Source: Ectocarpus siliculosus
Lineage: Eukaryota > Sar > Phaeophyceae > Ectocarpales > Ectocarpaceae
Length of the DNA: 30,719 bases
Assembly: GCA_000310025.1 (NCBI GenBank)
Contig: FN649729.1
Coordinates: 4,178,446 to 4,209,164, forward strand
Direction: 5' to 3'
In this document: one piece after another, positions 1,464 through 24,296 of the stretch
Layout of the letters: the number at the start of each line of letters is the position of its first letter
Numbering within the stretch: the stretch's first letter is position 1
Made by a program: the position numbers and the translations under genes
The notes under the pieces: generated by a model
Seen by the model: only the letters and a program-made list of their open reading frames with translations
What the model was told of the DNA's origin: nothing
Databases searched by the model: none

Positions 1464-3983
1464 GTGAGTAAACCTTTGAGTACGGAATTGTGAGACGGTT
1501 TGATAGTTTGATAGCCATTCGAGCTGCAAGGCATCACGGCTGCTGCGGATGGATTGAGTTTGTCACTCGTTTGTCGCCGAACTGGTCTTCTTGCGCCAAC
1601 AGAGAGCACCAAGTCGAATAACGAAGCTCGAGGACCTCGTCACCCTAGCACATGTTCTACGTTTTCGGTGTGTGAGACAGACTTGCCGTGCCGTTTGGCA
1701 CGTAGCAAACAATACATGACTGCAGGTTCAAAAATATATCATGCGTAGATTGCGTAGATCTCTACAGTACCACCATCCAAGATACGGCGTGCGTGCCCCT
1801 TATACTGCAGTTGAGAACACGGCGTGGTTGATGCCTTCGGGGATCCCGGCACTTGCACATGCTCTAGGTGGCATGGCGTGCAACCGAGTGAGTACGGAGG
1901 GGTATGGACGCTTGCAGACACAGGTGTTGCTCCCTAGGTTTGACTACTTTAACTGTACGGGGCAAACCAATCTCATGAGTCAATTCACGAGAGGCTAGAC
2001 CATGCCGCGGGAACCTCTCGGGTACTCTTAGAGCTTTACTTACCGGTAGAATATATATGCACACAAGCACTGAAATACTACCCCTTCGAGAAAATATCAT
2101 GGTTAGTTATTCTGGTCGACCTCTCGCAATAGGGGCGATCCCTAGGTCGCGCCTGGTACATACGAATTGCAGCAGCGTATTCTGTGTGTGGTGCGCGTGG
2201 TACAACTGCACCTCTCTCTTCCAATGTCTCCACGCCCTCTCTCCGTGCATTTCCATTGACGCTCCTCTAGGTTTCATCACCCACAACAAGGGTGACCTCT
2301 GTGGACTAGGAGAGTACCCGGTTGTTTTACCGCCAGGGCTGATTCCGTGGGACGACCAGAACAGAAACCACGGAGTGGTGCAGCAGAACTCGTCCGCCTT
2401 GGTTGAGGAGTCAGACGCGCTGACCATTTCCCGTAACATGGTGCCGGAACCCGGGGGTGAGGAGGCGGGGGCGGATGCAGCGGCCGGGGCGGAGGCAGCG
2501 ACGGGGGTGGAGGCGGCGGCCGGGGCGGCAGGGGGCGGGAAAGGCTCGGCATCCCCGGCAGCAAGCAGCGGTGGTATGCGTAGCGATGACCCTCCCGGAA
2601 GACACGGAAACAGCCATGATGAGGGAGCTCTCGGGGGATCCGCGGCCGGCAAGCGCAAGCGCCAGCACACCGGCCCTGAGGACAAACAGGCCCTACTCGC
2701 GGTGCGTTTGGAGTGATTTTTTTTAGAGATTATTCAGTCAAAGAACGACTACCCGTTCGATATTCGTTTGAAAATGTTTTTGTGGAGAATGTGGGCGTCG
2801 ATGTTGCTGCCTTGTAGAGTGGACCTGTACTGCTGCACGGACCGAGGGCGAGGTTACCAATACACCACGCAGAGTAATCCCTTTGTGCGACGAGCTGTGA
2901 GTTGTATCTGCCTTGCAAGTCGCTGCCTCGATGACCTACGATTGGCGTCCAATGTTTTATCGCTGATGGTTGGTTTGGACGGGCCGCAGTTTGTAGCGTG
3001 GCCACAGCGTACGCAGAAAGACGTGAACGCTGTGCACCCGTTTGTAGACCTCATGCGTCTTCAAGCCGAACGTTACACCCACGCGAGCGCTTACCACACA
3101 AGCACATCGCGCCATGAAGCTTGAACGAACCTATCCACTGTTTCCGCTCACGGCGCCTGAGCGAACCCAGCCCCCCCGGCGCCCGCCCCCTGCCCTCCAC
3201 CCCCCTTGCTCCACCCCTCGCGGACACGATGCGTGCTTTCGCGTGTGTCGCCGCCCACCAGGTGCCACTTAGGAAAGAGGATGGCGCCAGTTCTACGAAC
3301 ACGTACCCCCAACTGGTGGAAATTCCGAAACTGTCGCCGTCTATGGAGGATGCAGTGGAGCCAAGGCCCGCACACGAGGTGGTGAGCAATGGAGACGAGC
3401 AACAATCGGCGGCAAGCAAGTTCCACAACGCTGTAGCGGTGGCCGCTCCTCCTCTTCCTCCTCTTCCTCCGGCTCGTCCTCTTCGATCGTCTCAGCAAGC
3501 GCCGAGAGGTCCTGCAACGCCGCTGGGTGATGCGGCGGCAGGGGGCGGGGGTAAGCGTAGAAAGCCAAAGAGGGAAAAAAAGGAGGCGCGGCTAGCGGCT
3601 GCTGCTGACCACGCTTCCTTCTCTTCGTCCGCTGTCTCCGCTGCGGAAGGAAACCCCAGAGCTCACCTGCCGATGCCTGCGGCCACGGGGGCGTCTCGCC
3701 GTGCTTCTTCTTCGTTATCATTTGCCCTGCCCGCCGCGTCCACTTCCGGTGGAGAATCGATGTGCGCAGCAGCAGCAGCGGCAACAGAGGCACGAGGAGA
3801 TGGAGATGCAGCATTGGCGGCCGGAGGAGAGGGAGATGCAGCAGCAGCAGCAGCTCGAGGGCCTGGGCAGCAGCTCCCACGAGAAGGGACGGGAACGAAC
3901 TCGTCGAGTAGCCCGCCACCGACGGCAGCGGCTGTTGATGCGGCGGCGGAGGCAACACCGAAGGCGATCGAGCCGACGGCTGC

Positions 3984-4016
<33 letters not shown>

Positions 4017-7000
4017 TGCTGCTGCTCCTGCTGCTCCTGCTGCTCCTGCTGCTGCTGCTGCCGTTGGTGTGGCGCCCACCGCCGCGACGCCCGCCATCGG
4101 TGCCGCTGCCGCCGACGCCAACACCAAAACCAAGAAGCAGTGCGTCCGCGTTAGGTTCCAGTGGGAAGACCTGGTGAGTGCAGTAGGTCTTATACCCTGC
4201 CCTTCCATGGATTAGACACGACCTCCAACAGCAGTCTCGGCCGAGCGAAGCTCCAACAGGGTCGTATGAGTCATATGGGTGGGTTGATGCTTACACGGCA
4301 GGCACGTTACGAGCAACGGCGTAGCGCGTCCAAACGTGCTCGCAGTCCTGTAACTGGGGTTCGGTAGTGAAGGCTTCGACATGTAGTCTTACCAACTTGA
4401 AGCTGGCGTGTCGGGAGCTGCTACACCCATCAAACCATCCGCGGCAAGAAGGGTTGCACTATATAGTGAAGCACATTTTTCCCCGTCAGTATGGATCGCC
4501 GCTCTAGACTACTCTTTTCTTCCCCCGCCCAATACATTTGAAGACGGCGGTTGAACCCATCGTTCCAAGCCTTCCATCCTGCAGCAGAGTTTCACGAATT
4601 TCTTGGGGATGGGCCTACTCTGCTCGCAGGACAAGGTCTCTCGATTTGTGGAGTTCTTCCAGAACGTGTTCGGAGAAGTCGATATCGTCGTCGATGAGGC
4701 CGAGAGCGTCGTGAAGTGTTGGTGGGGGCACGGTGACCGCGCCATCAACACAACAGTGGATTACCTGGAGCATGGCATCCGAGTCTGCCGGGAAGGGCCG
4801 TGGCAGGTGGGATCGATCGACATTGTCGGGACAGGACTTTAGCAGACCTCACAGTTAATGAGAGCCAGGCGCATCGAGAGTGCAGCTATCATGGCTCCAA
4901 ACACATCGCTGTGAAGCTATTTCTCGAGCTGATGGGAGCTTCCGATAGCTGAACAAACGGCCTAGAACATGGAATCGTTAAAGAGCACTGTAATCATTTC
5001 GCCGGTAAGCAAGCCTCTTCGGAGCCCAGTAAGCAAGACCACTAACGCAACAGTAACAGGCCTCTCCGCTACACCTCTATTTCCCCCCTGCACTCACGTG
5101 CGCCAACTTGTCGTTGTGCCCGTTCAGCCGGCTAGCTTTTCGCTGATGCAAGTGAGGATCCCCACGCGCCCCGCAGAGAGCGGGACGTCGCGCCTGGTGC
5201 TCTCGGCCGGTGTGCCGCATCCATCGGACAAGCGGCTGAGGGAGCTGTCTGCCGTCTACGGCATCGTGGCTGCTAACGTCAAGGTGAATTGTCTCAAGGC
5301 CCAGCCACCGCCGCCACCGCCGCCATCATCAGGCGATGGTGCCGATATCGGCCTCAGCGGGGCGCGGCACCGACATGACGGCCTCCCTCAAAGCTTTGCT
5401 CCTCCTAGTGTGGAGGCGGCCAGTGACAGGGTTAAGGTGGCGCAGCTGTGGGGGCTCCACGACAATGTCCAGGCCGCCCTGGATCGCCTGGTTGTCGGGC
5501 CAGACAAGAATGCAGACCAGGAAAAGATATCTCTGCGGCTCGGACAACGTAACCTGGAACAGCTCGCGAGCACCGGATGGATCCGCACGCTAGAAAGGCG
5601 ACGGGCAAAGGTGAGCCGTACGAAAGTGCGCCGCAAACGGTGCCACTGCAGAGGTGGTTTTGTCGACGAATCCCTGCCCTGCTACGTCTTTTGTGGTGGT
5701 CATTTGGTTGCTGCGCTATGCAATGTCGTTTTATCTGGTGCACGCGGACGTGTCGGTACCATTTCCAACGCGAGGTATTTGTCGAGCTGGTATCCAACTA
5801 GGCGTGTCAAAACAGCCGCTACATTGTACAGTAGTGCATGGTCAGACAGACCAAGCCTCCGCTCTCCCGTGATAACGCTGTTACCGCTTCATCACATGTA
5901 CTTGTCAGTTTTTTTGGTGGTTTGGGCAAGCTGTTTGGAAGTCACACCGATCAGTTGCCGCTTGTGTTGCTCCCGTTTACATTATTCGGTGCTGAAAGGT
6001 GGAGCTATACCAGCAGAGAGGAACCATCCGTGTTACGCGCCTACACATCATCGCGGCCTCTCTAGTTGAGGCGCTCCCCCGATCCGTCCAGCTGGTGAGC
6101 CGTACTGTATCTGATCTGCGTAGGAAAGCGTAACCCCCGCAACGGCAAGCTTTCAGGGCTGGGTCATGTCCAGGATTGCTTGTACCGAACGGGACGGGAG
6201 GGCGTACTCATTTGTGGCTTGCCTTAGTCATTTGACCATTGACCACGCGTCCCTTTCGAGACGGAGCGCCGTTCCTACCCCTACTAGAGACACCACCAGC
6301 ATTTGGGAGCTCTTTACGTTTCTGCCACAAACTACATAAAAATTTCTTGCACATCTTATCCCCGTCCTCTAGGGCCTCTTGTGCCCACCATCTATCCCCA
6401 ATTATCGGGATCGTTTTTTCGCTGTTGTCTAATTTACCAAACTTGTCCATGTCACACCCTCTCTGTCTCATTTCCTCCTCGAGATCCTCTCTTTCCTTCC
6501 TGTACAACTCACACTCCCCAACTATGTGGGGTCTACTCTCCTCCGATTTGCCACATGGGGCATGTGTGTCCATCCTCCTCTTCCTCTCTCCTACGGCTGG
6601 TATACCTCTTCCTCCATTCTGGCAAGTCCAGATCGCCTACTCGAAATTGCAATTTCAGCTTTTTCGCGTAGTCCATGGGGCCGTCCAAGTTCGTCTTCAT
6701 CCCTATCCCTTCTTTCAACTTCCCGTATATCTCCAAGTGGTCTTCGCTTCGTACCTTCTTCCGAAGGGTTGCCTCCTCCCTACTGTCTAGCATCTCCTTG
6801 ACTTTCGTCTTGAACCCCCCGAACCCTTCCGTGTCCAATGTCTCCTCCTTGTCTCCTATCTCCTTCCAAACCTTCTCTACCACCTTGTCCCATCTGATTC
6901 CCTTCTTCCCTGGAGTCGCTTTTCCCCAAGCTGCCTTGTCAACCATGGCTGGTAGTCTATCGTCCGACATTCTACTTACCTTGTACTGCCAATTCAACTT

Positions 7001-10000
7001 CTGCATGTCTCTCTTTGTTTTAAGAGAGTACATTCCCAATTCTGCTCTCAATACAGTGTTGCTCGTTGTACTTGAACATCCTAGTATTTTCTTCGCCGCT
7101 GCCATCTGCACCGTTTCCAGCTGCTTGACGGCCTTTTCGTTACCTTCCCATACCTCTCCTGCATACTCTAACTTAGGTACAATCACATTCAAGAGAATAC
7201 ACCTCTTAATCCTAGTGTTTAGGTGTGGGTCCGTAAGGATCTCGTCCATCTTGCCTATCTGAGCTTTACCCTTCCCAATCAACTTTGCTATGTGTGCGTC
7301 CCATGAGCACTCCTTCGAAATCTCTACTCCAAGGTACGTATACTTGTCTACTACCGGTAGCTCTTCCTCCCCCCATTTCCATTTGAATTCTACGGGATTT
7401 TTCTTGTCTTCGTTACAGACCACTACTGCGCATTTTCCAACGTTCGCCGACAGTCTCCATTTTCGGGTGTATCCTACCGCCGCATCTATTTGTTCTTACA
7501 ACCCTTCTGGTGTTTCGGATACCCCCACGAAATCATCTGCAAACATCAGTCCGGACACACTCTTTCCCCCTACTTGGACTCCCTATCTTACTGCTTCAAC
7601 CGCCCTTATCAAATCGTTGATGTAAATGTTAAAACGAGTGGGTGACATCGTACAGCCCTGTGCGACTCCTTGGAGTATATCCACGTACTTCGAAATTTCC
7701 CCATCCAACATCACCGCACTTCTTGTGCATTCTGTCATCTTTTTCAACATCCTCCACATTTTCCCCCGGATCCCGATGTCCCACATCTTTTTCCACAATC
7801 CATTGCGCCACACGGTGTCGTAGGCTTTTTGTACATCTAGGAAGAAACAGTATGTCGTACGCCCGGCGTCTTTCCTACCTTGGATAATTTTACTCAACGT
7901 ATATACATGGTCTACACAACTACGGGACGGGGGGGGGGGGTATCATGCTGTAAAACGGCTGTTTCGGGAGCAGAACGGGCTATGCAACCAACTGTCGAGG
8001 ATTTGCGAGGGCATAGCGGGCCGGAGGACTATCAGAAGCGCGAGTAGCATGTGTTTGCTTTCTCCGCCGCACATAGCCACCGCATGTACAAACTACTGTC
8101 CGCCGGTATGTTTAGGCACATCGCAAGAAACCGGCCGTCCAAACGGAGTGGCACGAAACTCCCATCCACCCCCCACACACACTCACCGTTGCTGGGCACA
8201 ACCAAACACCGTCTGTCTCTCCGGCTGGCCTATCCTGTTGGCAGGTGGACATGGTCGACGCGGCTGTCATGCGCAACGTGGCAGCGCGTGCCAACCTTGA
8301 AGCTTTCGCTCGAGCGGGAGGGGGTGTCGCCGGGGATATCGAGGTCATTCCCGTGCGGGAATCGTGGCGCTTGCTAGTGGTAGCGCCCGGCGAAGAGAGG
8401 GTGGAGGGCACGGTGGGCAGGGTGGTGAATTGGCGGTAGTTCGGCGTCTGTGGTGCTGGCATCGCCTCGTATGTAGATGAACAACCACTTGCCGTAGTGT
8501 AGCATTGTACCGTAGAGGTCCCTGTTTAAGGCTGCTTACTTAAGGCCGGTTGCCCTGTCGAAGGGCGGTGAAAATAGCTTGGCATAGATGGAATATTCAA
8601 GCTTTCTAATACTCTGATTAGTGCCAGGCGCTCGATGCAAGGCCTGTGTTTTTTACCTTGGACGACAGCGGCCTTGAACAGGAACCTCTGTACGGTAGTC
8701 ATGTTTCCATGTGGGAGTTGGGGTCTTGCCTTGCCCAGCCGTTCGTTCCAAGAGTGTTTGTTGTTCAAGCGTCCTCGCTTTTCGTCTTTCTTTAGCCGCG
8801 TTTACCACGCCCACGCAACGGAACAACGACAGCTGCAAAAGTCATCGCTAGACTGCTTGTGTTTTGGCGAAGACTGGCGGTAGCTGCCGATAAGTTGTCG
8901 CTACAGCAGGCGGGCAGAGTGTTACGGCATGGTATGCCGGTAAGCAACCCAGGCTAGGCTTTGCCTCTCTACTTGCTGACTAGATCCTCCCCTCGCTGCT
9001 CGTTGTTTTCTCATGGAAGTGCAAGGCCATCGGTCAAGCGGCGCGGCGGTGGGCTGATGCTCACGTCAGCGTGCCCCTCAATCCGCAGATGTACGTGAAG
9101 CAGCTACACAAAAGTCGCTGGCAACGTGGAGTTGAGAAGGACTCCAAGCCACCGATCATTGCCGATCTGTCGCGGGCAGTCTCGAAGCATGGCGTCGATC
9201 TGTGGCTTGACGCCTTCTGCCTGAGGGGGCACGTCGGGGAGATCGCTGTCAAGAAGGCTGTCGAGGCAGTTCTCCGAACCAAGCTCAAGAAAAACGTAAG
9301 CAGCAAGGCTCGCGTGGCATCTTGCGAAGCAGACGCAGCTTGGAGCCCCTGCTTTGTGGTGCGCTGCTCGGATGCTGTGTGCGGCTGTACGGCAGACGAA
9401 CCGCCACAGAATGAAAGACCTAATAGTAGGGCATGCGGGTTGAGAGCGAATGATGTGTAAATCCTGCCGACTTTCTGTCCAGTACCTCGGCAGTAACAGA
9501 CCGGTGGTGAGTCGTTAGCTGACTGTCGGTTGGGGGTGAAACCCAAGACATTAATGCATCCAACGGTAGCCGTGAAACAACGTTAAGGTTGCGGAGTTGC
9601 GAGTGACTGACGCCGGTCCAGTCTTCTGCTCACCCGTGCCTTCTCTTTACCGTGCGTAAACTCTTGCGCCCACTTGAACTTTACTGATGAACGAATTTCC
9701 CGGGCGTATGTTGCTGTGGCAGTATCCTGGCCTTCTGGCCAAACGCCGCGTACCCGATGCGCCGAGCTCGACCGTCGACGGCGCCGGACCTCCTGATCTC
9801 GCCCCTCCCAAGAGTCGAGCAAACGCATGGGACTCGGGCAGCTTCAGTAGCTCCGGAACAGCAAGCTTTCCCTCTCGCAACACCACCGGAGCTCCGGCTG
9901 GGGCGGCAGCCGGATCGAAAACGTCGGGGCAGTCGTCGGCAGCGTCCCCGGCTAGAGCAAGGCAGGCGGCTGGTACTGCCGGACACGTGGGTGTTGGTGG

Positions 10001-10750: not shown

Positions 10751-10792
<42 letters not shown>

Positions 10793-13700: not shown

Positions 13701-16700
13701 AAATTGACCGTTTTGAAAAGTGTTATCGTACCGCCGCTAGAGTACGCCGGAGAAGTATGGGAAGGAAATAAGAAGGTAGTCAAGAGCTCGAGGCGGCGCA
13801 GATGAAAGCAGCGAGAGTCATCCTAGGATGCTCCAAGTGCACACGAAATGCAGCCGTCAGGGCAGAACTGGGGATCCGACCCCTACGATCGGGAAGAGAC
13901 GCAAGGAAGCTGACATGGCAGTATCGCATGTGCGGTATGGGAAAGGAGAGGTTACCGGGAATAGCTTGGGAGGTGGAGTGGGTAAACAAGAAGAGGGGTA
14001 GACAACCCACGGAGTGGGTCAAGGTTGTAGGTGACGTATGGAAGGGGTTCGAACTTGACGAAGGCGATACACTGGATACGGAGGGTCTAAAAGGGTTCAA
14101 GGAGAATATATATGTTGCTTTGCGGAGAGAGAACAGAATCTAAGGGGGAAAACAAGGATAAAGAAGGCATAGAAGTGTACGGAATGTTGAAAGAAGGAAT
14201 AGGGTTCAAGGAGTACCTACATGGACCAATGGATGCAGGGACAAAGCTGAAGATCAAATTCAGGACCGGGGACATTGGCCTTCGAGAACGTAGCCAAGGA
14301 TATAGGAAGGTAGACCATGAAGACGCCAAGTTCAAATGTGATTGGGGCTCCGAGTGCGAAGACCGTGTTCCTGTAGTCGCGGAATGTCGACTGTAAAAGA
14401 AGGAGAGGGAAGTGTACATGACTGAGCTGGGAAAAGTAGAAGAAAAGCACAGGGAGATGTTCGAGGCATGGGATAGCCAGGAGAAGACGCTAGCTGTACT
14501 GGGGCATAGGGAGTGGGTTGAAAAGGCGGGAAGTGATATCGGTAGGATAGATAGACTAGGGACGACATTTTTGAGCCACCTTTGGCAAAGTAGGAAGGAA
14601 CGATTGGCCATCGGTCATCAGTCCTGTAGGAACAATGCTCCGTCCTCTCGAGGACGCGTGGTCAATGGTCTAACCGCTAAGGCATGCAAAACATAAGAGT
14701 ACGCCCCTCCCCCCCCCCCCCACTCACCGTTGCTGGGCACAACCAAACACCGTCTGTCTCTCCGGCTGGCCTATCCTGTTGGCAGGTGGACATGATCGAC
14801 GCGGCTGTCATGCGCAACTTGGCAACGCGTGCCAAACTTAAAGCTTTCGCTCGAGCGGGAGGAGGTGTCGCCGGGGATATCGAGGTCATTCCCGTGAGGG
14901 AATCGTGGTGCTTTCTAGTGGTAGCGCCCGGCGAAGGGGCGGCGGAGGGCACGGTGGGCAGGGTGGTGAGTTGGCGGTAGTTCGGCGTCTGTGGTGTTGG
15001 CATCGCCCACGTATGTAGATGAACAACCACTTGTATTGTATCAATGAACAGTAGAGGTCCCTGTTTAAGGCCGCTTGCTGAAGCCCGGTTGCCCTGTCGA
15101 AGGGCGGTGAAACTCGCGTGGAACAGATGGAATATTCAAGCTTTCTCATACTCTGATTAGTGCCAGGTGCCCGATGTACGGCCTGTGTTTTTTACCTTGG
15201 ACAACAGCAGCCTTGAACAGGAACCTCTGTACGGCAGTCGTGCTCCCATATGGGAGTTGGGGTCTTGCCTTGCCCAGCCGTTCGTTCCAAGAGTGTTTGT
15301 TGTTCAAGCGTCCTCGCGTTTCGCCTTTCTTTATCCGCCTTTGCCACGCCCACGCAACGGAACAACGATAGCTGCAAAAGTTGTCGCTAGACGGCTTGTG
15401 TTTTGGCCAAGACTGGCGGTAGCTGCCGATAAGTTGTCGCTACAGCAGGCGGGCAGAGTGTTACGGCATGGTATGCCGGTATGAAACCCAGACTATACTA
15501 GGCTTTGCCTTTCTAGTTGCTTACCAGACCCCCCCCTCGCTGCTCGTTGTTTTCTCATGGAAGTGCAAGGCCATCGGTCAAGCGGCGCGACGGTTGGCTG
15601 CGGTTCACATCAGCATGCCCCTCGAGTCGCCGACGTACGAACAGCAGCTGCTGATGTACGGCAAGCAGCTGAAAAAGGGTCGCGGGCAACGTGGAGTTGA
15701 GAAGGAGGCCAAGCCATCGATCATGGCCGATCTGTTGCGTGCAGTCTCGAAGCATGGCGTCGATCTGTGGCTCGACGCCTTCTGCCTGAGGGGGCACGTC
15801 GGGGAGATCGCTGTCAAGAAGGCTGTCGAGGCAGTGCTCGAAACCGAGCTCAAGAAAAAGGTAAGCAGCAAGGCTCGCGTGGCATCTTGCGAAGCAGACG
15901 CAGCTTGGAGCCCCTGCTTTGTGGTGCGCTGCTCGGATGCTGTGTGCGGCTGTACGGCAGACGAACCGCCACAGACTGAAAGACCTAATAGTAGGGCATG
16001 CGGGTTGAGAGCGAATGATGTGTAAATCCTGCCGACTTTCTGTCCAGTACCTCGGCAGTAACAGACCGGTGGTGAGCCGTTAGCTGACTGTCGGTTGGGG
16101 GTGAAGCCCAAGACATTGATTGATGCATCCAACGGTAGCCGTGAGACAACGTTAAGGTTGCGGAGTTGCGAGTGACTGACGCCGGCCCGGTCTTCTGCTC
16201 ACCCGTGCCTTCTCTTTACCGTGCGTAAACTCTTGCGCCCACTTGAACTTTACTGATGAACGAATTTTCCGGGCGAATGTTGCTGTGGCAGTATCCTGGC
16301 CTTCTGGCCAAACGCCGCATACCCGATGCGCCGAGCTCGACCGTCGACGGCGCCGGACCTCCTGATCTCGCCCCTCCCAAAAGTCGACCGAGCGAATGGG
16401 ACTCGGGCAGCTTCAGCAGCTCCGGAACAGCAAGCTTTCCCTCTCGCAACACCACCGGAGCTCCGGCTGGGGCGGCAGCCGGGTCGAAGACGTCGGCGCA
16501 GTCGTCGGCAGCGTCCCCGGCTAGAGCAAGGCAGACGGCTGGTACTACTGGACACGTGGGTGTTGGTGGCGGTAGCTGCGGCGACGGTGTTGGTGCTTTT
16601 CCGGCGTTCTCGTTCGGGACGACAGCCTCTGGGCCGCCGGCGAGGGCATGGGACATGGAGACCTTCGGCAACTTTGCAGTAGCTGCCGGCACTTCTCCCG

Positions 16701-17322
16701 CCACTAGGGGCATTTTCGGAGCCCCGGTTCCGGCGGGAGCGGGACCGAAAATGTTGACGCCGACATCGGTGGAGCTACCGGCGGGGACAGGGGACGGGGC
16801 TGCCGGTGCTTCATCTGCTACCGCTCCCGCCTCCGCCGCTGCTGGTGCTGCTGGTGCTGCTACAGCTACTGCCGGTCATGTGAGTGGTGGGAGAAGTGGT
16901 GGTGATGATGTTGGTGCTGGTGGTATTCCGTCATTCTCGTTTGGAACAACCGTTAGGCCGCCATCTAGGCCGTCATCCAGTGTTTGGGGCTCGGGCAAAA
17001 TCAGCAGCTCTGGAACAGACGAAACAAACTCTCCCGCCACTGCGGGTGGAGAAGCGATATCCGCAGCAGCAGCGGCGGCGGCACCAGAGGCACGAGGAGA
17101 GGGAAATGTAGCATTGGCGGTAGGAGGAGAGGGGGATGCGGCAGCAGCAGCAGCAGCAGCTCGAGGGCCTGGACAGCAGCTCCCGCGGGAAGGGACGGGA
17201 ACGAACTCGTCGAGTAGCCCGCCACCGACGGCAGCGGCTGTTGATGCGGCGGCGGCGGCGACGGCGACGGCGGCAACACCGAAGGCGATCGAGCCAACGG
17301 CTGCTGCTGCTGCTGCTGCTTC

Positions 17323-17366
<44 letters not shown>

Positions 17367-20300
17367 CTGCTGCTCCTGCTGCTCCTGCTGCTGCTGCTGC
17401 TGCTACTACTGCTGCTCCTGCTGCTGCTCCTGCTGCTGCTGCTCCCGCCGTTGGTGTGGCGCCCACCGCCGCGACGCCCGCCATCGGCGCCGCTGTCGCC
17501 GACGCCAACACCAAAACCAAGAAGCAATGCCTCCTCGTTCGGTTCCAGGCGGAAGACCTGGTGAGTGCGGTCAGTCTTGCACCCTGCCCTTCCATGGATT
17601 AGGCACGACCTCCAACAGCAGTCTCGGCCGAGCGAAGCTCCAACAGGGTCGTATGAGTCATATGGGTGGGTTGATGCTTACACGGCAGGCACGTTACGAG
17701 CAACGGCGTAGCGCGTCCAAACGTGCTCGCAGTCCTGTAACTGGGGTTCGGTAGTGAAGGCTTCGACATGTAGTCTTACCAACTTGAAGCTGGCGTGTCG
17801 GGAGCTGCTACACCCATCAAACCATCCGCGGCAAGAAGGGTTGCACTATATAGTGAAGCACATTTTTCCCCGTCAGTATGGATCGCCGCTCTAGACTACT
17901 CTTTTCTTCCCCCGCCCAATACCTTTGAAGACGGCGGTTGAACCCATCGTTCCAAGCCTTCCATCCTGCAGCAGAGTCTCACGAATTTCTTTGCGATGGG
18001 CCTACTCTGCTCGCAGGACAAGGTCTCTCGATTTGTGGAGTTCTTCCAGAACGTGTTCGGAGAAGTCGATATCGTCGTCGATGAGGCCGAGAGCGTCGTG
18101 AAGTGTTGGTGGGGGCACGGTGACCGCGCCATCAACACAACAGTGGATTACCTGGAGCATGGCATCCGAGTCTGCCGGGAAGGGCCGTGGCAGGTGGGAT
18201 CGATCGAAACTGTCGGGACAGGACTTTAGCAGACCTCACAGTTAATGAGAGCCAGGCAAATCGAGAGTGCAGCTATCATGGCTCCAAACACATCGCTGTG
18301 AAGCTATTTCTCGAGCTGATGGGAGCTTCCGATAGCTGAACAAACGGCCTAGAACATGGAATCGTAAAAGAGCACTGTAATCATTTCGCCGGTAAGCAAG
18401 CCTCTTCGGAGCCCTGAAAGCAAGACCACTAACGCAACAGTAACAGGCCTCTCCGCTACACCCCTGCACTCACGTGCGCCAACTTGTCGTTGTGCCCGTT
18501 CAGCCGGCTAGCTTTTCGCTGATGCAAGCGAGGATCCCCACGCACCCCGCAGAGAGCGGGACGTCGCGCCTGGTGCTCTCGGCCGGTGTGCCGCATCCAT
18601 CGGACAAGTGGCTGAGGGAGCTGTCTGCCGTCTACGGCATCGTGGCTGCTAACGTCAAGGTGAATTGTCTCAAGGCCCAGCCACCGCCGCCACCGCCGCC
18701 ATCATCAGGCGATGGTGCCGATATCGGCCTCAGCGGGGCGCGGCACCGACATGACGGCCTCCCTCAAAGCTTTGCTCCTCCTAGTGTGGAGGCGGCCAGT
18801 GACAGGGTTAAGGTGGCGCAGCTGTGGGGGCTCCACGACAATGTCCAGGCCGCCCTGGATCGCCTGGTTGTCGGGCCAGACAAGAATGCAGTCCAGGAAA
18901 AGATATCTCTGCGGCTCGGACAACGTAACCTGGAACAGCTCGCGAGCACCGGATGGATCCGCACGCTAGAAAGGCGACGGGCAAAGGTGAGCCGTACGAA
19001 AGTGCGCCGCAAACGGTGCCACTGCAGAGGTGGTTTTGTCGACGAATCCCTGCCCTGCTACGTCTTTTGTGGTGGTCATTTGGTTGCTGCGCTATGCAAT
19101 GTCGTTTTATCTGGTGCACGCGGACGTGTCGGTACCATCTCCAACGCGAGGTATTTGTCGAGCTGGTATCCAACTAGGCGTGTCAAAACAGCCGCTACAT
19201 CGTACAGTAGTGCATGGTCAGACAGACCAAGCCTCCGCTCTCCCGTGATAACGCTGTTACAACTTCATCACATGTACTCACCAGTTTTTTTGGTGGTTTA
19301 GGCAAACTGTTTCGAAGTCACACCGATCAGTTGCCGCTTGTGTTGCTCCCGTTTACATTATTCGGTGCTGAAAGGTGGAGCTATACCAGCAGAGAGGAAC
19401 CATCCGTGTTACGCGCCTACACATCATCGCGGCCTCTCTAGTTGAGGCGCTCCCGCGATCCGTCCAGCTGGTGAGCCGTACTGTATCTGATCTGCGTAGG
19501 AAAGCGTTAACCCCCGCAATGGCAAGCTTTCAGGGCTGGCTCATGTCCAGGAGTGCTTGTACCGAACGGGACGGCGGGGGGGGGTATCATGCTGTAGAAC
19601 GGCTGTTTCGGGAGCAGAACGGGCTGTGCAACTAACTGTCGAGGATTCGCGAGGGCCGGAGGATTATCAGAAGCGCGAGTGGCATGCGTTTGTCCCGCTT
19701 CCTCCGCCGCACATACCGTAAATGACACAAGATAACACACCTACATAAGACAGCACACCCCCCACAGAATACGACACCCCGGTGATATTTTTGGGCGTTT
19801 CTGACAAACCATCGATTATCACCGGGGATACACAAGATACACATCCCGGTGATATATTAAGGATACGTTGCATGTATTCACGGGACCCCTCCTTTTATCA
19901 CCGGGGTGACAGCATCTGCCCCTGGGCATCATACACAACACGCACCCTTTTTTGTGTGCGGGAAACGACCCGCATGGAGACCTCCAACCGGACGAACGTG
20001 CAGGAAGAAAAACAGACTGCCGCCGCAAGTGCCTCTGCTTCTTCCACAACTGCTTCGACTGTAGCAGCACAGGCGCAACAGACCACCTCGTTCTTTCACC
20101 CGAGCAAACTTCTTCTACGCAAGCGGCTCCTGCTACGGCTTCCTCCTGCTGCAGTTGATCTAACAACAGCAGCAGCTGGCACAGCAGCAGGCGCCAACAT
20201 GACAGCCACCACCTCGCCTCACCAGCAGCCAGTTGCTGACTCGCTCTCAGCAGTACGTACGAGTACCGTAGACGAGTCAACACGCACCACCAAAGCCTCT

Positions 20301-23300
20301 CATCTGGTGTTGGTGAATACCTCCTCATTATTACACCCCCAAACACACCCTGTGGGTGTTCGGACGTGCTGTCACACCCCATGGTCTATCACATCCCCTT
20401 AGGAGCCCCTGTGAGCTGCACTTTGTCACCCGGAGTACATAAGGTACCACACCCCCCACAGGATACCACACCCGGTGACAATATTTTTAAACCCAAAAAT
20501 GTTATCACCGGGGTGTGTTATCTTGTGTCATTTACGGTAGCCACCGCATGTACAAACTGTGCGCCGGTGTGTTTAGGCACATCGCAAGAAACCGGCCGTC
20601 CAAACGGAGTGGCACGAAACTCCCACCCCCCCACCCCCCCACTCACCGTTGCTGGGCACAACCAAACACCGTCTGTTTCTCCGGTTGGCCTATCCTGCTG
20701 GCAGGTAGACATGATCGACGCGGCTGTCATGCGCAACGTGGCAACGCCTGCCAACCTTGAAGCTTTCGCTCGAGCGGGAGGAGGTGTCGCCGGGGATATC
20801 GAGGTCATTCCCGTGCGGGAATCGTGGCGCTTGCTAGTGGTAGCGCCCGGCGAAGAGCCGGCCGAGGGCACAGTGGACAGGGTGGTAAGTCGACGGTAGT
20901 TCGGCGTCTGTGGTGCTGGCACCGCCCACGTATGTAGATGAACAACCACTTGTCGTAGTGTTGCATTGTACCGTAGAAGTCCCTGTGTAAGGCTGCTTAC
21001 TTAAGGCCGGTTGACCTGTCGAGGGCGGTGAAAATCGCTTGGCGCAGATGGAACATTCAAGCTTTCTCATACTCTGAATAGTGCCAGGTGCTCGATGTAA
21101 GGCCTGTGTTTTTCGCTTGGACGACAGCGGCCTTCGACAGGAACCTCTGTACGGTAGTCATGTTTCCATGTGGGAGTTGGGGTCTTGCCTTGCCCAGCCG
21201 TTCGTTCCGAGAGTTTTTGTTGTTCGAGCGTCCTCGCGTGTCGCCTTTCTTTAGCCGCCTTTGCCACCCCCACGCAAAGGAACAACGACAGCTTCAAAAG
21301 TTAGAGGGCTTGTGTTTTGGCGAAGACAACCCAGGCTAGGCTTTGCCTCTCTACTTGCTGACTAGATCCTCCCCTCGCTGCTCGTTGTTTGCTCATGGAA
21401 GTGCAAGGCCATCGGTCAAGCGGCGCGGCGGTGGGCTGATGCTCACGTCAGCGTGCCCCTCAATCCGCAGATGTACGTGAAGCAGCTACACAAGAATCGC
21501 TGGCAACGTGGAGTTGAGAAGGACTCCAAGCCACCGATCATTGCCGATCTGTCGCGGGCAGTTTCGAAGCATGGCGTCGATCTGTGGCTCGACGCCTTCT
21601 GCCTGAGGGGGCACGTCGGGGACATGACCGTGAAGAAAGCTGTCGAGGCAGTTCTCCGAACCAAGCTCAAGAAAAAGGTAAGCAGCAAGGCTCGCGTGGC
21701 ATCTTGCGGAGCAGACGCAGCTTGGAGCCCCTGCTTTGTGGTGCGCTGCTCGGATGCTGTGTGCGGCTGTACGGCAGACGAACCGCCACAGAACCGAAGA
21801 CCTAACAATAGGGCATGCGGGTTGAGAGCGAATGGTGTGTAAATCGTGTCGACTTTCTGTCCAGTACCTCGGCAGTAACAGACCGGTGGTGAGCCGTTAG
21901 CTGACTGTCGGTTGGGGGTGAAGCCCAAGACATTGATTGATGCATCCAACGGTAGCCGTGAGACGACGTTAAGGTTGCGGAGTTGCGAGTGACTGACGCC
22001 GGTTCAGTCTTCTACGCACCCGTGCCTTCTCTTTGCCGTAAAACTGCCGCGCCCACTTAAAAATTTACTGATGAACGAATTTCTCGGGCGTATGTTGCTG
22101 TGGCAGTATCCTGGCCTGTTGGCCAAACTCCGCGTACCCGATGCGCCGAGCTCGACCGTCGACGGCGCCGGACCTCCTGATCTCTCCCCGCCCAAGAGTC
22201 GAGCGAGCGCATGGGACTCGGGCAGCTTCAGCAACTTTGCAATAGCTGCCGGCGCCTCTCCCGCCGCTGGGGGCCTTTGTGGAGCTCCGGCGGGAGCCGG
22301 ACCGAAAATGTTGACGCTGACATCGGTGGAGCTACCGGCGGGGACAGGGGACGGGGCCGCCGGTGCTTCATCTGCTGCCGCTCCCTCCTCCGGTGCTGGT
22401 GCTGGTGCTACAGCTACTGCCGGGCATGTGAGTGGTGGGAGAAGTGGTGGCGATGGTGTTGGTGCTGGTGCTCTTCCGTCATTCTCGTTTGGAACAGCCG
22501 GTACGCCGCCATCTAGGCCGCCATCCAGTGTATGGGGCTCGGGCAAAATCAGCAGGTCCGGAAAAGCAACAACAAGCTCTCCCACCACTGCCGGTACTCC
22601 TGGATCTCCGGTGGAAGCGGCAGCAGGAGCGGTAGCGGCAGCGGAACGGAAGAAGTTGCCGTCGTCAGCGTCACAACTCCCGGCGGGGACAGGGGACGGG
22701 GCTGTCGCTACTGCCGCTTTTACTACGACCGCTACCACCGCCACTGCTGCTACTGTTGCTGATACAGCTACTGCCGGGCATGTGAGTGGTGGGAGTAGTG
22801 GTGGCAATGGTGTCGGTGCTGGAGTTGTTCCGTCGTTCTCGTTTGGAACAACCGGTACGCCGCCATCTAGACCTCCATCCAGTGTATGGGGCTCGGGCAA
22901 AATCAGCAGCTCCGGAACAGCAACAACAAGCTCTCCCACCACTGCCGGTGCTTCAGGAGCTCCGGCTCCGGCTCCGTCGGTAGCGGAATCGAAATTGTCG
23001 GCGCCGTCATCGTCAGAGCTCCCGGCGGGGAAAAGGGATGGGGCTGCCGCTGCTGCCGTTTTTACTACGACCGCTACCTCCGCCGCCGGTGCTGCTGCTG
23101 CTGCTGCTGCTGCAGCTGCTGCTGCTGCTGCTGCAGCTGCTGCCGGGTATGTGAGTGGTGGGAGTAGTGGTGGCGATGGTGTTGGTGCTGGAGTTGTTCC
23201 GTCGTTCTCGTTTGGAACAGCCGGTAGGCCGCCATCTAGGCCGCCATCCAGTGTATGGGGCTCCGGCAGAATCAGCAGCTCCGGAAAAGCAACAACAACC

Positions 23301-23461
23301 TCTCCCACTACTTCCGGTGCATTTGGAGCCCCGGCTCCGGCTCCGGCGGGAGCGGGACCGAAAATGTTGGCACCGTCATCGTCAGAGCTCCCGGCGGGGA
23401 AAAGGGATGGGGATGGGGCTGCCGCCACTGCCGCTTCTACTGAGACCGCTACCTCCGCCGC

Positions 23462-23509
<48 letters not shown>

Positions 23510-24296
23510 AGCTACTGCCGGGCATGTAAGTGGTGGGAGTAGTAATGGCGATGGCGACGAGGACGGGGCTGCCGCCTCTACGGCTTCTCTTTCCGTCGCC
23601 TCTGCTACTACCGCCTCTGTTGCTCCCGCTGCTGCCACTGCCGAACGCGTGGGTGTTGGTGGCGGTAGCTGCAGCGACGGTGTTGGTGCTTTTCCAACGT
23701 TCTCATTCGGGACGACAGCCTCTGGGCCGCCGGCGAGGGCTTGGGATATGGAGAGCTTCGGCAACTTTGCAATAGCTGCCTGTTCCTCTCCCGCCACCAG
23801 GGGTGTTTTCGTAGCTCCGGTTTCGGCGGGAGCGGGACCGACAATGTTGACGCCGACATCGGTGGAGCTACCGGCGGGGACAGGGGACGGGGCTGCCGGC
23901 GCTTCATCTGCTGCCGCTCCTGCTGGAAAGGTTGTGAGTGATTGTGACGATGCTGTGGTGGGTGAGCTAGGTACTCCTGCTCGGCACGCTTCGACTCCGC
24001 CGGCCCTAGCAGATGGTGAGCCTGTGGGGGTCGAGCAGGGTATGGACCATGCGGCTGGAACGAGCTTGCCATGTCAGGCGCCGCAGCAGGAGTCTGTCGG
24101 AGAGAGAGAGGGCGAGGAGGAAAAAGGGCCCAGGGGGACAAAGAGGAGAAGAGGGAAGGAGGAGGAGGACCAACAGCAGGAGGAGGAAGGAGGAGGAGAA
24201 CAAGGAGGAAGGAGGGAGAGGAGGACAAGGAGGGAACGGAAGGAGGAGGAGGAGGAGGAGGAGGGGGAGGAGGGGCAGGGAGAAGGAGGAGGTTGA
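1322..24296 (+). CDS. Putative giant multi-module gene, or tandem array of paralogous genes (family unknown)
   Basis: A gene-level model built by eye from splice-site consensus, frame and comparison of the tandem copies. Proposed exons: 1322-1463, 2271-2701, then U0, U1 and U2 (seven exon types a, c, d, e, f, g, h each) and the terminal exon 22107-24296. All introns from 2702 onward are phase 0, and the joined frame is open for about 3,370 residues. Paralogous exons differ in length by 0, 3, 21, 24 or 69 nt, while paralogous introns differ by 1, 2, 4, 5, 11 or 136 nt, as expected if the boundaries are right. No homologue is recognised and no function is assigned. The protein would be Ala/Gly/Ser-rich and largely disordered in the a exons, with basic clusters and a Glu/Arg/Gly-rich tail. 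The alternative is that each unit is its own gene, starting at the conserved ATG 36 nt before exon a and ending just after exon h. Confidence 0.38.
1464..2270 (+). other. Candidate intron; no gene seen
   Basis: Lies between the candidate exons 1322-1463 and 2271-2701. It contains another strong donor-like site (CGA|GTGAGTACGG at about 1885-1894), so an extra exon ending at 1887 is possible. That exon would not be phase-compatible with 2271 without a further exon. Confidence 0.25.
2271..2701 (+). CDS. Candidate second exon, acidic/Ala-rich with a KRKR cluster
   Basis: The acceptor is CTCTAG and the donor GCG|GTGCGT, phase 1 in and phase 0 out, giving 143 codons. The first half reads as ordinary protein with aromatic and hydrophobic residues (PPGLIPWDDQ). 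The second half is Ala/Gly/Glu-rich with imperfect repeats of AGAEAATGVEAA type, followed by a basic KRKRQ cluster that could act as a nuclear localisation signal. The intron 2702-3261 (560 bp) has a pyrimidine-rich 3' part. Function unknown. Confidence 0.4.
3262..4173 (+). CDS. U0 exon a: Pro/Ala-rich low-complexity exon ending in the conserved VRFQ..EDL block
   Basis: 304 codons, from acceptor CACCAG to donor CTG|GTGAGT, in phase 0. It holds a proline-rich stretch (PPLPPLPPARP), a strongly basic cluster near exon residue 98 (KRRKPKREKK), Ala/Ser-rich linkers and a polyalanine run encoded by GCT/CTG repeats. It ends in a short non-repetitive block, QCVRVRFQWEDL. Only the 3' part (from about 3735) is homologous to exon a of the later units; the 5' part is unique to this copy and lacks the FSFG motifs. 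The exon start is inferred from one plausible acceptor, while the open frame extends back to 3121. Confidence 0.45.
3979..4060 (+). repeat. GCT/CTG trinucleotide run (polyalanine), U0
   Basis: Near-perfect GCT repeats interrupted by CCT and TCT. In the model frame they encode alanines with occasional Pro and Ser. Equivalent runs of different length occur in the other units. Confidence 0.9.
4630..4806 (+). CDS. U0 exon c (59 codons)
   Basis: The acceptor is CTCGCAG|GACAAG and the donor TGGCAG|GTGGGA, phase 0 on both sides. It encodes a compact segment: an amphipathic helix (DKVSRFVEFFQNVFG), strand-like VDIVVDE and SVVKCWW, a second helix, then CREGPWQ. Joined to the end of exon a, the first helix continues from EDL without a break, which supports this splice. 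The intron to exon d is 321 bp. No family recognised. Confidence 0.55.
5128..5610 (+). CDS. U0 exon d (161 codons)
   Basis: The acceptor is CCCGTTCAG|CCGGCT and the donor GCAAAG|GTGAGC, phase 0. It starts PASFSLMQ and continues with a hydrophobic strand/helix segment (SRLVLSAGV, then KRLRELSAVYG), a polyproline linker of seven prolines, a helix-rich segment (VKVAQLWGLHDNVQAALDRL) and a basic end (RRRAK). The start at 5128 rather than further upstream is favoured because U2 carries an 11-bp deletion just before this acceptor, which would break the frame if that stretch were coding. An apparent internal donor (AAG|GTGAAT) is not conserved in U1, so the exon is probably continuous. Confidence 0.5.
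5999..6094 (+). CDS. U0 exon e (32 codons)
   Basis: The acceptor is GCTGAAAG|GTGGAG and the donor CAGCTG|GTGAGC, phase 0. It encodes VELYQQRGTIRV followed by a hydrophobic stretch, LHIIAASLVEALP. It is exactly 96 nt in all three units. The following intron (6095-8244) carries the minus-strand LINE. Confidence 0.45.
6189..6198. repeat. Target-site duplication, left copy, of the U0 LINE
   Basis: ACGGGACGGG at 6189-6198 is repeated at 7922-7931, bracketing the LINE. U1 and U2 carry this site once, uninterrupted. The right boundary is fuzzy because a G run follows. Confidence 0.75.
6199..7921 (-). mobile_element. 5'-truncated LINE (non-LTR retrotransposon), U0 e-f intron
   Basis: On the minus strand the element starts inside the reverse-transcriptase domain, at the fingers/palm around the first catalytic aspartate. 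It runs through the RT core and a long C-terminal region to a 3' end reading GAGTACGCCC. It has a 10-bp target-site duplication and no poly-A tail. It shares coding homology and the same 3' terminus with the plus-strand LINE in U1, so both belong to one family. The opposite strand of insertion and the different site make it an independent event. Confidence 0.92.
6208..7897 (-). pseudogene. LINE ORF2-like reverse transcriptase fragment, broken
   Basis: RT motif A (KAYDTVWR) lies near the start, followed by motif B (QGVAQGCTMSP, then FNIYINDL). The catalytic FADD box of motif C lies about 7533-7544. A long C-terminal domain follows, with a Cys/His cluster and the conserved LEYAGEVWEGN segment. 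The N-terminal endonuclease and the first RT motifs are missing. An in-frame TAG at 7583-7585 and a TAA near 7494 interrupt the main frame, and a frameshift near 6540-6573 moves the last 120 codons to another frame. The copy cannot encode an active protein. Confidence 0.92.
7922..7931. repeat. Target-site duplication, right copy, of the U0 LINE
   Basis: ACGGGACGGG, the second copy of the 10-bp duplication. It is followed by a G run and then by sequence that matches the uninterrupted U2 and U1 introns (TATCATGCTGTA). Confidence 0.75.
8245..8424 (+). CDS. U0 exon f (60 codons)
   Basis: The acceptor is GTTGGCAG|GTGGAC, preceded by a pyrimidine-rich tract. The donor is GTG|GTGAAT, weaker than the GTGAGT and GTAAGT of U1 and U2. 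It is phase 0 and exactly 180 nt in all copies. It encodes a helix (AAVMRNVAARANLEAFARAGG) followed by two strand-like segments, GDIEVIPVRE and WRLLVVAPGE, and ends EGTVGRV. No family recognised. Confidence 0.52.
8796..8939 (+). CDS. U0 exon g (48 codons), the only intact copy
   Basis: The acceptor is a strong pyrimidine tract ending CTTTCTTTAG and the donor CCG|GTAAGC, phase 0. It encodes a basic, helix-prone segment (PRLPRPRNG, then VIARLLVFWRRLAVAADKLSLQQ). The equivalents in U1 and U2 are damaged. The following intron (8940-9019) is only 80 bp. Confidence 0.45.
9020..9295 (+). CDS. U0 exon h (92 codons)
   Basis: The acceptor is CATGGAAG|TGCAAG, with an alternative AG six bases later that is also in frame. 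The donor is AAC|GTAAGC, phase 0. The exon is helix-rich and basic, with the best conserved segment of the module: KHGVDLWLDAFCLRGHVGE, followed by VKKAVEAVL. Without splicing the frame runs on to 9460 through a Cys-rich tail. In the copies that tail changes mostly at amino-acid-altering positions, so it looks like intron. Confidence 0.52.
9296..9722 (+). other. h-to-a junction, U0 to U1 (intron or gene boundary)
   Basis: 427 bp, with paralogues of 431 and 429 bp. It begins GTAAGC and ends TGTGGCAG, and has a branch-point-like TTACTGAT at 9681-9688, about 35-40 nt before the AG. It can be read as an intron joining units. An in-frame ATG at 9687, conserved in all three junctions, is the alternative start of a separate gene. 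Confidence 0.45.
9723..10922 (+). CDS. U1 exon a: Ala/Gly/Ser-rich exon with two FSFG motifs
   Basis: 400 codons from acceptor TGGCAG|TATCCT to donor CTG|GTGAGT, phase 0; the open frame starts at ATG 9687. It opens with a non-repetitive YPGLLAKRRVPDAPS block. Then come two Ala/Gly/Thr-rich repeats containing FSFG at 10038-10049 and 10365-10376, with FGNF and IFGAP nearby, then a polyalanine tract. It ends QCLLVRFQGEDL. Dispersed FxFG motifs in a disordered, charge-poor context recall FG nucleoporins, but the density is low, so this is only a resemblance. Confidence 0.5.
10733..10816 (+). repeat. GCT/CTG trinucleotide run (polyalanine), U1
   Basis: GCT repeats with TCT and CCT interruptions, encoding mostly alanine in exon a. 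Confidence 0.9.
11374..11553 (+). CDS. U1 exon c (60 codons)
   Basis: Same boundaries as the U0 copy, with one extra codon. The segment after the CWWG motif is replaced (RQRYHAIYRIANYLEH instead of HGDRAINTTVDYLEH). The flanking residues are unchanged, which points to a localised patch of change with the frame kept. Confidence 0.52.
11875..12381 (+). CDS. U1 exon d (169 codons)
   Basis: Homologous to the U0 copy but with eight extra codons. They arise from a 24-bp in-frame duplication around 12236-12270 that repeats the GP(E/D)..RLVVGPDKN segment. The internal GTGAAT seen in U0 is GCGAAT here, so that position is not a donor. Confidence 0.5.
12906..13001 (+). CDS. U1 exon e (32 codons)
   Basis: Same length and boundaries as the other copies, with substitutions only (VELYLQSGTIRV). 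The next intron (13002-14785) holds the plus-strand LINE. Confidence 0.43.
13352..13366. repeat. Target-site duplication, left copy, of the U1 LINE
   Basis: CACTCACCGTTGCTG, repeated at 14721-14735. U0 and U2 carry this sequence once, continuing into GGCACAACC. Confidence 0.9.
13367..14696 (+). pseudogene. LINE reverse-transcriptase C-terminal remnant, frameshifted
   Basis: Successive pieces in different frames align to the U0 LINE protein: KWRLSANV and VCNEDK (13361-13570), PLEYAGEVWEGN (13617-13805), ILGCSKC (13802-14143) and a C-terminal part (14112-14696). Stops lie after 13570 and at about 14394-14396, and at least two frameshifts separate the pieces. All catalytic RT motifs before the DD box are absent. 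Confidence 0.9.
13367..14720 (+). mobile_element. 5'-truncated LINE, U1 e-f intron
   Basis: Begins exactly at the RT catalytic box (VDDFVGVSGTPEGLQ) and runs through the same C-terminal region as the U0 element. It ends AAGAGTACGCCCCT before a C run that merges with the target site. A 15-bp target-site duplication flanks it. It belongs to the same family as the minus-strand copy but is clearly diverged from it, and has decayed more. Confidence 0.92.
14721..14735. repeat. Target-site duplication, right copy, of the U1 LINE
   Basis: CACTCACCGTTGCTG, after which the sequence continues as in the empty sites of U0 and U2. Confidence 0.9.
14786..14965 (+). CDS. U1 exon f (60 codons)
   Basis: Acceptor TTGGCAG|GTGGAC and donor GTG|GTGAGT, phase 0. 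Same length as the other copies, with scattered substitutions (ATRAKLKAF, SWCFLVVAPGEG). Confidence 0.5.
15335..15478 (+). pseudogene. U1 exon g copy with a lost acceptor
   Basis: The frame of 48 codons is intact, but the acceptor is changed from CTTTAG to CTTTAT and the donor from GTAAGC to GTATGA. The change also removes the stop seen in U0, so the frame is now open upstream to 15167. Use of another upstream AG (for example GTGCCAG near 15165-15171, in frame) is possible; skipping would also keep the frame. Confidence 0.4.
15564..15860 (+). CDS. U1 exon h (99 codons)
   Basis: Acceptor CATGGAAG|TGCAAG and donor AAG|GTAAGC. Seven codons longer than the other copies because of an in-frame difference near the QLLMYGKQLKKG segment. 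The DLWLDAFCLRGHVGE core is unchanged. Confidence 0.5.
15861..16291 (+). other. h-to-a junction, U1 to U2 (intron or gene boundary)
   Basis: 431 bp, begins GTAAGC and ends TGTGGCAG, with the same TTACTGAT branch-point-like site and conserved ATG (16256) as the other junctions. Confidence 0.45.
16292..17560 (+). CDS. U2 exon a (423 codons), two FSFG motifs
   Basis: Almost identical to U1 exon a apart from a longer, more interrupted polyalanine tract that includes ATTAAPAAAP-like residues. FSFG motifs lie at 16607-16618 and 16934-16945. It ends QCLLVRFQAEDL before donor CTG|GTGAGT. The length difference from U1 is 69 nt, a multiple of three. Confidence 0.5.
17300..17443 (+). repeat. GCT/CTG trinucleotide run (polyalanine), U2
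   Basis: The longest of the CTG-type tracts, with CTT, CCT and ACT interruptions. It accounts for most of the size difference between U1 and U2 exon a. Confidence 0.9.
18017..18193 (+). CDS. U2 exon c (59 codons)
   Basis: Encodes the same segment as the U0 copy (HGDRAINTTVDYLEH version), not the U1 version. Acceptor CTCGCAG and donor TGGCAG|GTGGGA are conserved. Confidence 0.54.
18504..18986 (+). CDS. U2 exon d (161 codons)
   Basis: Nearly identical to U0 exon d, differing by a few substitutions (for example DKWLREL for DKRLREL). Upstream of the acceptor an 11-bp deletion removes part of the pyrimidine tract relative to U0 and U1. Confidence 0.5.
19375..19470 (+). CDS. U2 exon e (32 codons)
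   Basis: Encodes the same protein segment as U0 exon e. Acceptor CTGAAAG|GTGGAG and donor CTG|GTGAGC. The intron that follows (19471-20704) carries the inverted-repeat element. Confidence 0.44.
19716..19741 (+). repeat. Left terminal inverted repeat
   Basis: 26 bp, perfect reverse complement of 20512-20537. Confidence 0.97.
20448..20518. repeat. Subterminal direct repeat and hairpin of the inverted-repeat element
   Basis: 20448-20488 repeats 19754-19792 in direct orientation with few differences (CACACCCCCCACAG start, ending in a T run). Positions 20466-20518 form an imperfect palindrome around AAACCC, with arms ACACCCGGTGACAATATTTTT-like. The arms carry the CACCGGGG motif found throughout the element. 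Confidence 0.8.
20512..20537 (-). repeat. Right terminal inverted repeat
   Basis: 26 bp, perfect reverse complement of 19716-19741, followed by the TA target duplicate at 20538-20539. Confidence 0.97.
20705..20884 (+). CDS. U2 exon f (60 codons)
   Basis: Acceptor CTGGCAG|GTAGAC and donor GTG|GTAAGT, the best donor of the three copies, phase 0. The sequence is closer to U0 than to U1 (NLEAFARAGG, WRLLVVAPGEE). Confidence 0.52.
21255..21326 (+). pseudogene. U2 exon g remnant, 3' end and donor deleted
   Basis: The CTTTAG acceptor is kept. A 6-bp in-frame deletion lies near 21300, and a 71-bp deletion at about 21325 removes the last third of the exon and its donor, compared with 8875-8945 in U0. 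Read through, the frame meets TAG within about 15 codons. Skipping the exon keeps the overall frame because both neighbours are phase 0. Confidence 0.55.
21402..21677 (+). CDS. U2 exon h (92 codons)
   Basis: Same length as U0 exon h. Acceptor CATGGAAG|TGCAAG and donor AAG|GTAAGC. A small cluster of changes converts GEIAVKKA to GDMTVKKA. Confidence 0.5.
21678..22106 (+). other. h-to-a junction, U2 to U3 (intron or gene boundary)
   Basis: 429 bp, begins GTAAGC and ends TGTGGCAG; ATG at 22071 is conserved with the other junctions. Confidence 0.45.
22107..24296 (+). CDS. U3 terminal exon: expanded FSFG/Ala repeats with Glu/Arg/Gly-rich tail
   Basis: 729 codons and a TGA stop; the open frame starts at ATG 22071. 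It begins like exon a of U1/U2 (YPGLLAKLRVPDAPS). It then has four repeats of about 115-125 residues, three of them opening GHVSGG/GYVSGG..GAGVVPSFSFG, with FSFG at 22482-22493, 22836-22847, 23205-23216 and 23700-23711. It lacks the RFQ.EDL block that ends the other a exons. After about 23930 it diverges into an acidic/basic low-complexity tail (KRRRGKEEE, ERKEEEEEEE) encoded by purine-rich DNA. No c-h exons follow, so this is the 3' end of the array. An alternative is a partial gene copy. Confidence 0.5.
23090..23143 (+). repeat. GCT/GCA trinucleotide run (polyalanine), U3
   Basis: About 18 alanine codons with GCA interruptions, in the second U3 repeat. Confidence 0.9.
23462..23516 (+). repeat. 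GCT trinucleotide run (polyalanine), U3
   Basis: An almost pure run of about 17 alanine codons, in the third U3 repeat. Confidence 0.9.

Follow-up and report, generated by a model that had tools for sequence, protein, structure and literature searches.

Structure of the module array

The window analysed here is a 30,719-nt stretch of the 189 Mb genome of Ectocarpus siliculosus (G000:C4:4178446-4209164). It carries a tandem array of multi-exon modules, which a first-pass annotation had read as one spliced gene for a modular protein. Three modules with the core exons c, d, e, f and h lie within positions 4630-21677 (Table 1), and direct DNA repeats with periods of ~6.75 and 6.64 kb cover roughly 4.2-22 kb. 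When the copies were compared by 300-nt segment, many segments were 91-99% identical and some just 60-77%, which is far above chance. In the exon table, which was built on sequence anchors, each of the 15 core exons is free of stop codons, in phase 0 and bordered by AG and GT. The exon lengths in copies 1/2/3 were exactly those annotated before (c 177/180/177; d 483/507/483; e 96/96/96; f 180/180/180; h 276/297/276 nt), and the intron length differences were also recovered (U-c 456/451/456; c-d 321/321/310; d-e 388/524/388; f-g 482/480; y-a 216/220/218 nt). The three indels in exons c-h are all multiples of three (3, 24 and 21 nt); the alignment gaps in introns include 1, 4, 5 and 11 nt. The partial upstream copy proposed earlier corresponds to the 3′ part of exon b, which is homologous to the 3′ part of exon a of copy 1 (a1). 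The exon order a-c-d-e-f-g-h was found in each copy for all exons but g, for which the earlier annotation gave no length and whose only candidate is missing from copy 3. The copies stand head to tail, share one exon order and are joined in frame, as in an intragenic tandem duplication. The array is real and the first-pass annotation is right in outline; the role of phase 0 as an enabler of modularity is not supported, as described below.

The probable founding joint and intron phase

Exon a1 is chimeric. Blastn aligns parts of its first 756-757 nt with the terminal exon a3, and its sequence from nt 746 onward with exon b (86.6% over 461 columns). The a3-like and b-like matches overlap by 11-12 nt (a1 nt 746-757), and the overlapping positions in exons a1, b and a3 are in the same reading frame. 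This microhomology is imperfect: the a1 and b stretches differ at 2 of 12 positions, and the b stretch has one mismatch in 12 to a3 at 22939 and 23308 and two at 22585. As read from the DNA, the founding duplication most likely had its joint within a coding stretch.

The phase 0 shared by the introns is real for all 15 core exons. The first-pass annotation had added that this phase allows copies to be added or lost, a proposal that did not stand. With the founding joint most likely within exon a1, intron phase would be irrelevant to that step, and unequal exchange between homologous copies afterwards preserves the frame in any intron phase. As a control, admittedly a small one of a single neighbouring gene, we used a BOP1/ERB1-like gene with five modelled C-terminal exons within 26590-30088 on the minus strand; all four introns between these exons are in phase 0, so this phase is at least common locally. 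Over 209 residues the spliced product and human BOP1 can be aligned gap-free (E 8e-84). Phase 0 was therefore rejected as a special feature. It may be ordinary at this locus, and the array gives no demonstration that it was selected for. The control is a conserved ribosome biogenesis gene, and the 5′ border of its first modelled exon is not fixed.

Relatives elsewhere in the genome

Relatives of the module were found at C1, C8, C17 and C10. The C1 relative has one module, in which n, b and a parts can be recognised, and C8 has two modules in tandem. C17 has, on one contig, two near-identical single modules that lie 231 kb apart and point in opposite directions; they are either a recent inverted duplication or an assembly artefact. 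The C10 relative, in which exon d contains one TAG stop and exon e is placed upstream of d, seems to be a copy that has been rearranged and broken. Of the 25 core exons that the five modules of C1, C8 and C17 should contain, 21 were modelled, and all 21 have AG/GT borders and a length divisible by three, with the borders chosen to fit homology and two C8 e exons taken from a scan requiring phase 0. The identity between C1 and copy 1 was 49-62% by exon for c, d, e, f and h, and exon b matched C1 with 66% DNA identity over 473 columns (E 4e-32). The predicted exons of the relatives appear to support the coding reading of the array better than the array copies themselves do. Through these models the earlier proposal of a spliced open frame, encoding a large modular protein of an unnamed family, gained support. 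Stages can be compared within one genome, because the single-module C1, the two-module C8 and the broken C10 are all present in it.

The predicted protein

The predicted protein has ~3,200 amino acids (3,228 when the modelled exons are summed without g and y) and would have three ~400-aa modules with Ala/Gly/Ser/Pro-rich linkers between them. Basic clusters are present in n, b and the end of a3, and the protein is possibly nuclear. One spliced module (468 aa) and the 208-aa n/b segment were searched against Pfam with E up to 10, and no family was found. The module had no match in NCBIfam, and a sequence search of the PDB revealed no relative (best E 0.34 for h, 0.023 for d and 0.037 for a four-module profile). 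The exon d match, a stretch of hemagglutinin, was taken as chance. Thus no family was named by Pfam, NCBIfam or PDB sequences, eukaryote proteomes lying outside this search, and the array outlines a protein module that these libraries did not cover in our searches. Profile comparisons of h with c and of d with c, the only pairs compared, gave no internal repeat. No paper on this gene family was found in the open-licence PubMed Central (PMC) literature by title and start of abstract.

A usable structure model was obtained for exon h only. The prediction (mean predicted local distance difference test score, pLDDT, 78) has the order beta-alpha-alpha-beta-beta-alpha after a leading helix, and several KH domains are among its structural neighbours. 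The hallmark of KH domains is a GxxG loop between the first two helices. In exon h this loop has GxxG in two of seven sequences (GQRG in copy 2 and GSAG in C17b) and lacks it in the other five, so the motif is not conserved. Exon h had no Pfam KH match, the 36 KH_1 matches in the genome listing include neither the window nor its relatives, and hhalign comparisons of five exon profiles with KH gave a probability of at most 4.2%. Membership of exon h in the type I KH family (Pfam KH_1) was rejected, given no profile match and a GxxG that is not conserved. The model suggests that exon h may have a KH-like alpha/beta fold. With low confidence, multivalent binding of RNA, DNA or protein would be the likeliest role, and the product is likely a fast-evolving, perhaps nuclear, repeat protein.

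Coding constraint and origin of the array

Against C1, copies 1-3 showed zero stops in 316-322 differences, where the neutral mean was 6.2-6.4 (P 0.0005-0.001). The ratio of nonsynonymous (dN) to synonymous (dS) divergence, omega, was 0.64 for copy 1 (neutral P 0.013), 0.70 for copy 2 (neutral P 0.073) and 0.63 for copy 3 (neutral P 0.003); these three comparisons are not independent, as C1 is common to all. Within the array, omega was 0.45 for copies 1 and 3 (P 0.053). Coding constraint is visible only against C1, and the array-internal signal is weak. Selection for an open frame, as claimed earlier, can be read from the comparison with C1 but not from the array copies alone. Equal dN and dS between copies, which the first-pass annotation had named as part of the evidence that would speak against it, was indeed found for copies 1 and 2, though not when the copies were compared with C1.

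In our view the array is most likely a real protein-coding gene, one of a small family that evolves fast and is unnamed in the searched libraries, and it probably grew by a founding duplication in an ancestor (probability roughly 0.72). Several observations weigh against this. Copies 1 and 2 have dN 0.086 and dS 0.092 (omega 0.93, neutral simulation P = 0.57), with differences by codon position of 33/31/36, and copies 2 and 3, with omega 0.81, also fall within the neutral simulation. Support for a matching exon a acceptor in C1 is weak (26 nt, E 0.21), and unrelated folds match the exon h model as well as or better than KH domains do.

The near-neutral values, for which the absence of stops had P = 0.07 (copies 1 and 2) and P 0.095 (copies 2 and 3), would fit one live gene with decaying extra modules made by tandem segmental duplication, with extras that do not, or no longer, belong to a useful protein. 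The inserts in the e-f intron of all three copies and the TAG stop of the C10 relative point the same way. We regard this explanation as unlikely, because frame and splice sites are intact in all three modules, every exon indel keeps the frame, and copies 1 and 3 have a low omega. Moreover, C8 also has two modules, and these are far more diverged (dN 0.53 and dS 0.93 over c, e, f and h, by the NG86 method only), so multi-module forms persist.

Divergence between copies 1 and 2 is patchy, from 0.5% in the h-y intron through 2.9% in U-c and 8% in f-g to 23% in d-e, and the patchwork is also seen in 40-nt windows. Exon c is identical in copies 1 and 3; in copy 2, 10 of the 11 codons 33-43 and one other codon differ, with flanking introns differing by 2.9% and 3.7% between copies 1 and 2. 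Gene conversion and relaxed constraint would explain the patchy divergence. Diversifying selection is possible behind the cluster in exon c. As a general account, in which module surfaces diversify like those of brown algal candidate immune receptors with shuffled exons, it is very unlikely: overall omega is not above 1, gene conversion can equally cluster differences, and Pfam gave no LRR, TPR, NB-ARC or ROC match. Three separate tandem genes, one per module, instead of one 3,200-aa protein are very unlikely too. C1, with its single module and recognisable n, b and a parts, speaks for such genes; in the array, however, the 5′ half of b that resembles C1 stands before copy 1 only, the long a3 with its stop after copy 3 only, and the modules are separated by a chimeric a/b exon that is open and has a GT donor.

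For the preferred reading of one growing gene, we propose the following course. The ancestor probably had a single module, as in C1. The sequence shows the low-complexity 5′ part of terminal exon a joined in frame, within coding sequence, to the low-complexity 3′ part of b at the imperfect 11-12 nt microhomology, giving the chimeric a/b exon between modules. Recombination at this microhomology may have founded the array, and unequal exchange would then have led to three modules. Patchy gene conversion would have homogenised copies 1 and 3, with the middle of copy 2 keeping old sequence, and transposons may have entered each e-f intron separately after the duplication. Module growth by an in-frame joint inside a low-complexity coding exon would be a route without need for symmetric introns. 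A bolder version is decidedly improbable: a lineage-specific protein family whose new ~400-aa module comprises several KH-like units and multiplies within its own gene by exchange between low-complexity coding linkers, not introns, and in which short surface stretches (e.g. exon c codons 33-43) diverge while flanking introns homogenise. If true, this would be a multivalent binding array able to change its valence and specificity between individuals.

Comparison with known repeat genes

Nebulin and apolipoprotein(a) are large vertebrate repeat genes that grew by multi-exon intragenic duplication. The array likewise has a multi-exon unit in tandem, apparently homogenised by exchange, whereas its domains are unrelated to theirs and its founding joint would lie in low-complexity coding sequence with microhomology. 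With multi-KH proteins such as vigilin, exon h shares the predicted type I KH element order, but not a consistent GxxG, a Pfam KH_1 match or profile similarity. Zambounis (2012) and Teng (2023) reportedly described shuffled repeat exons in brown algal LRR-ROCO and NB-ARC-TPR genes. In the brown algal ROCO genes, as described in PMC11378527, every LRR is encoded by a single exon of 72 bp in phase 2, and these exons undergo shuffling and alternative splicing. The array resembles the LRR-ROCO and NB-ARC-TPR genes in intragenic tandem duplication, exons of one phase, an expandable repeat protein and, as brown algal DNA, in lineage. It differs from LRR-ROCO (72 bp, phase 2, one LRR per exon) in its unit of at least five exons and ~6.6 kb, its phase 0, its unmatched module and the joint inside an exon (PMC11378527). 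The core exons, of 96-507 nt and phase 0, do not follow the pattern of one repeat per short exon of fixed length, and no LRR, TPR, NB-ARC or ROC/COR domain of the shuffled receptors was matched by Pfam in the spliced module or the n/b segment. One COR match is present in the genome, far from the window.

Feature coordinates, doubtful exons and intron inserts

The modelled features are collected in Table 1. The 5′ border of exon n is not fixed because its similarity to C1 seems to extend further upstream. In exon a3, the nested 369-nt coding repeats occupy 22409-23490 in 3.0 copies of ~123 aa that carry the motifs SFSFG and VWGSG; poly-Ala tracts also lie there.

Table 1. Positions of exons, joint and relatives; window coordinates unless another sequence is named.
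Feature	Position	Strand	Remark
Exon n (candidate, N-terminal)	2273..2702	+	basic KRKR stretch; matches C1 relative at the peptide level (41% over 58 aa, E 4e-7)
Exon b	3262..4173	+	AG/GT, phase 0; 5′ ~475 nt conserved in C1; 3′ part (3740-4173) a1-like
Microhomology, exon b side	3740..3751	+	overlap of two kinds of a1 blastn match
Exon c, copy 1	4630..4806	+	
Exon d, copy 1	5128..5610	+	
Exon e, copy 1	5999..6094	+	
Exon f, copy 1	8245..8424	+	
Exon g, copy 1 (doubtful)	8907..8939	+	
Exon h, copy 1	9020..9295	+	predicted KH-like element order
Exon y, copy 1 (doubtful)	9483..9506	+	24 nt, between h and a
Exon a, copy 1 (a1)	9723..10922	+	chimeric, low-complexity; 5′ part like terminal a3, 3′ part like b
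Joint of founding duplication, in a1	10468..10479	+	most likely position; overlap of two kinds of blastn match
Exon c, copy 2	11374..11553	+	codons 33-43 differ from copies 1 and 3 in 10/11
Exon d, copy 2	11875..12381	+	internal 24-nt tandem duplication
Exon e, copy 2	12906..13001	+	
Exon f, copy 2	14786..14965	+	
Exon h, copy 2	15564..15860	+	+21 nt
Exon a, copy 2	16292..17560	+	chimeric; 92% identity to a1 along its length
Exon c, copy 3	18017..18193	+	identical to copy 1 exon c
Exon d, copy 3	18504..18986	+	
Exon e, copy 3	19375..19470	+	
Exon f, copy 3	20705..20884	+	
Exon h, copy 3	21402..21677	+	
Exon a3 (terminal)	22107..24296	+	nested 369-nt repeats, poly-Ala, 6 FG dipeptides, charged tail; TGA stop 24294-24296
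C17 relative	C17:4629201-4629617	minus	
C17 relative	C17:4860425-4860841	plus	
C10 relative	L010 ~6137-6562 and 7215-7313	minus	

Exons g and y were rejected as firm exons. The sole candidate found for g is 33 nt long and occurs in copies 1 and 2; when the f-h intron of copy 1 was compared with C1 by blastn, matches lay only outside it. Exon y measures 24 nt in all three array copies and 23 nt in C1. Parts of the h-a and f-h introns (9402-9569 and 8744-8837) are 73-74% identical to C1 stretches (L009 8647-8820 and 7950-8042), and a conserved noncoding element or a missed exon is possible there. An Rfam search of 4100-10000 with E up to 1 gave no match.

The e-f introns of copies 1/2/3 are 2,150, 1,784 and 1,234 nt long. 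That of copy 1 contains a reverse-transcriptase open reading frame (ORF) on the minus strand (RVT_1, E 1e-14), and that of copy 2 contains broken ORFs on the plus strand, whose peptides are similar to the copy 1 insert when compared by eye. These retrotransposon-like inserts, at ~6240-7935 (minus, module 1) and 13360-14690 (plus, module 2), are in opposite orientation, with a reverse-transcriptase match only for the first. Copy 3 alone has an 826-bp element (19714-20539) with 28-bp inverted ends, counting TA at each end. The remaining e-f intron sequence can be aligned between copies by blastn, and copy-specific inserts account for most of the length differences.
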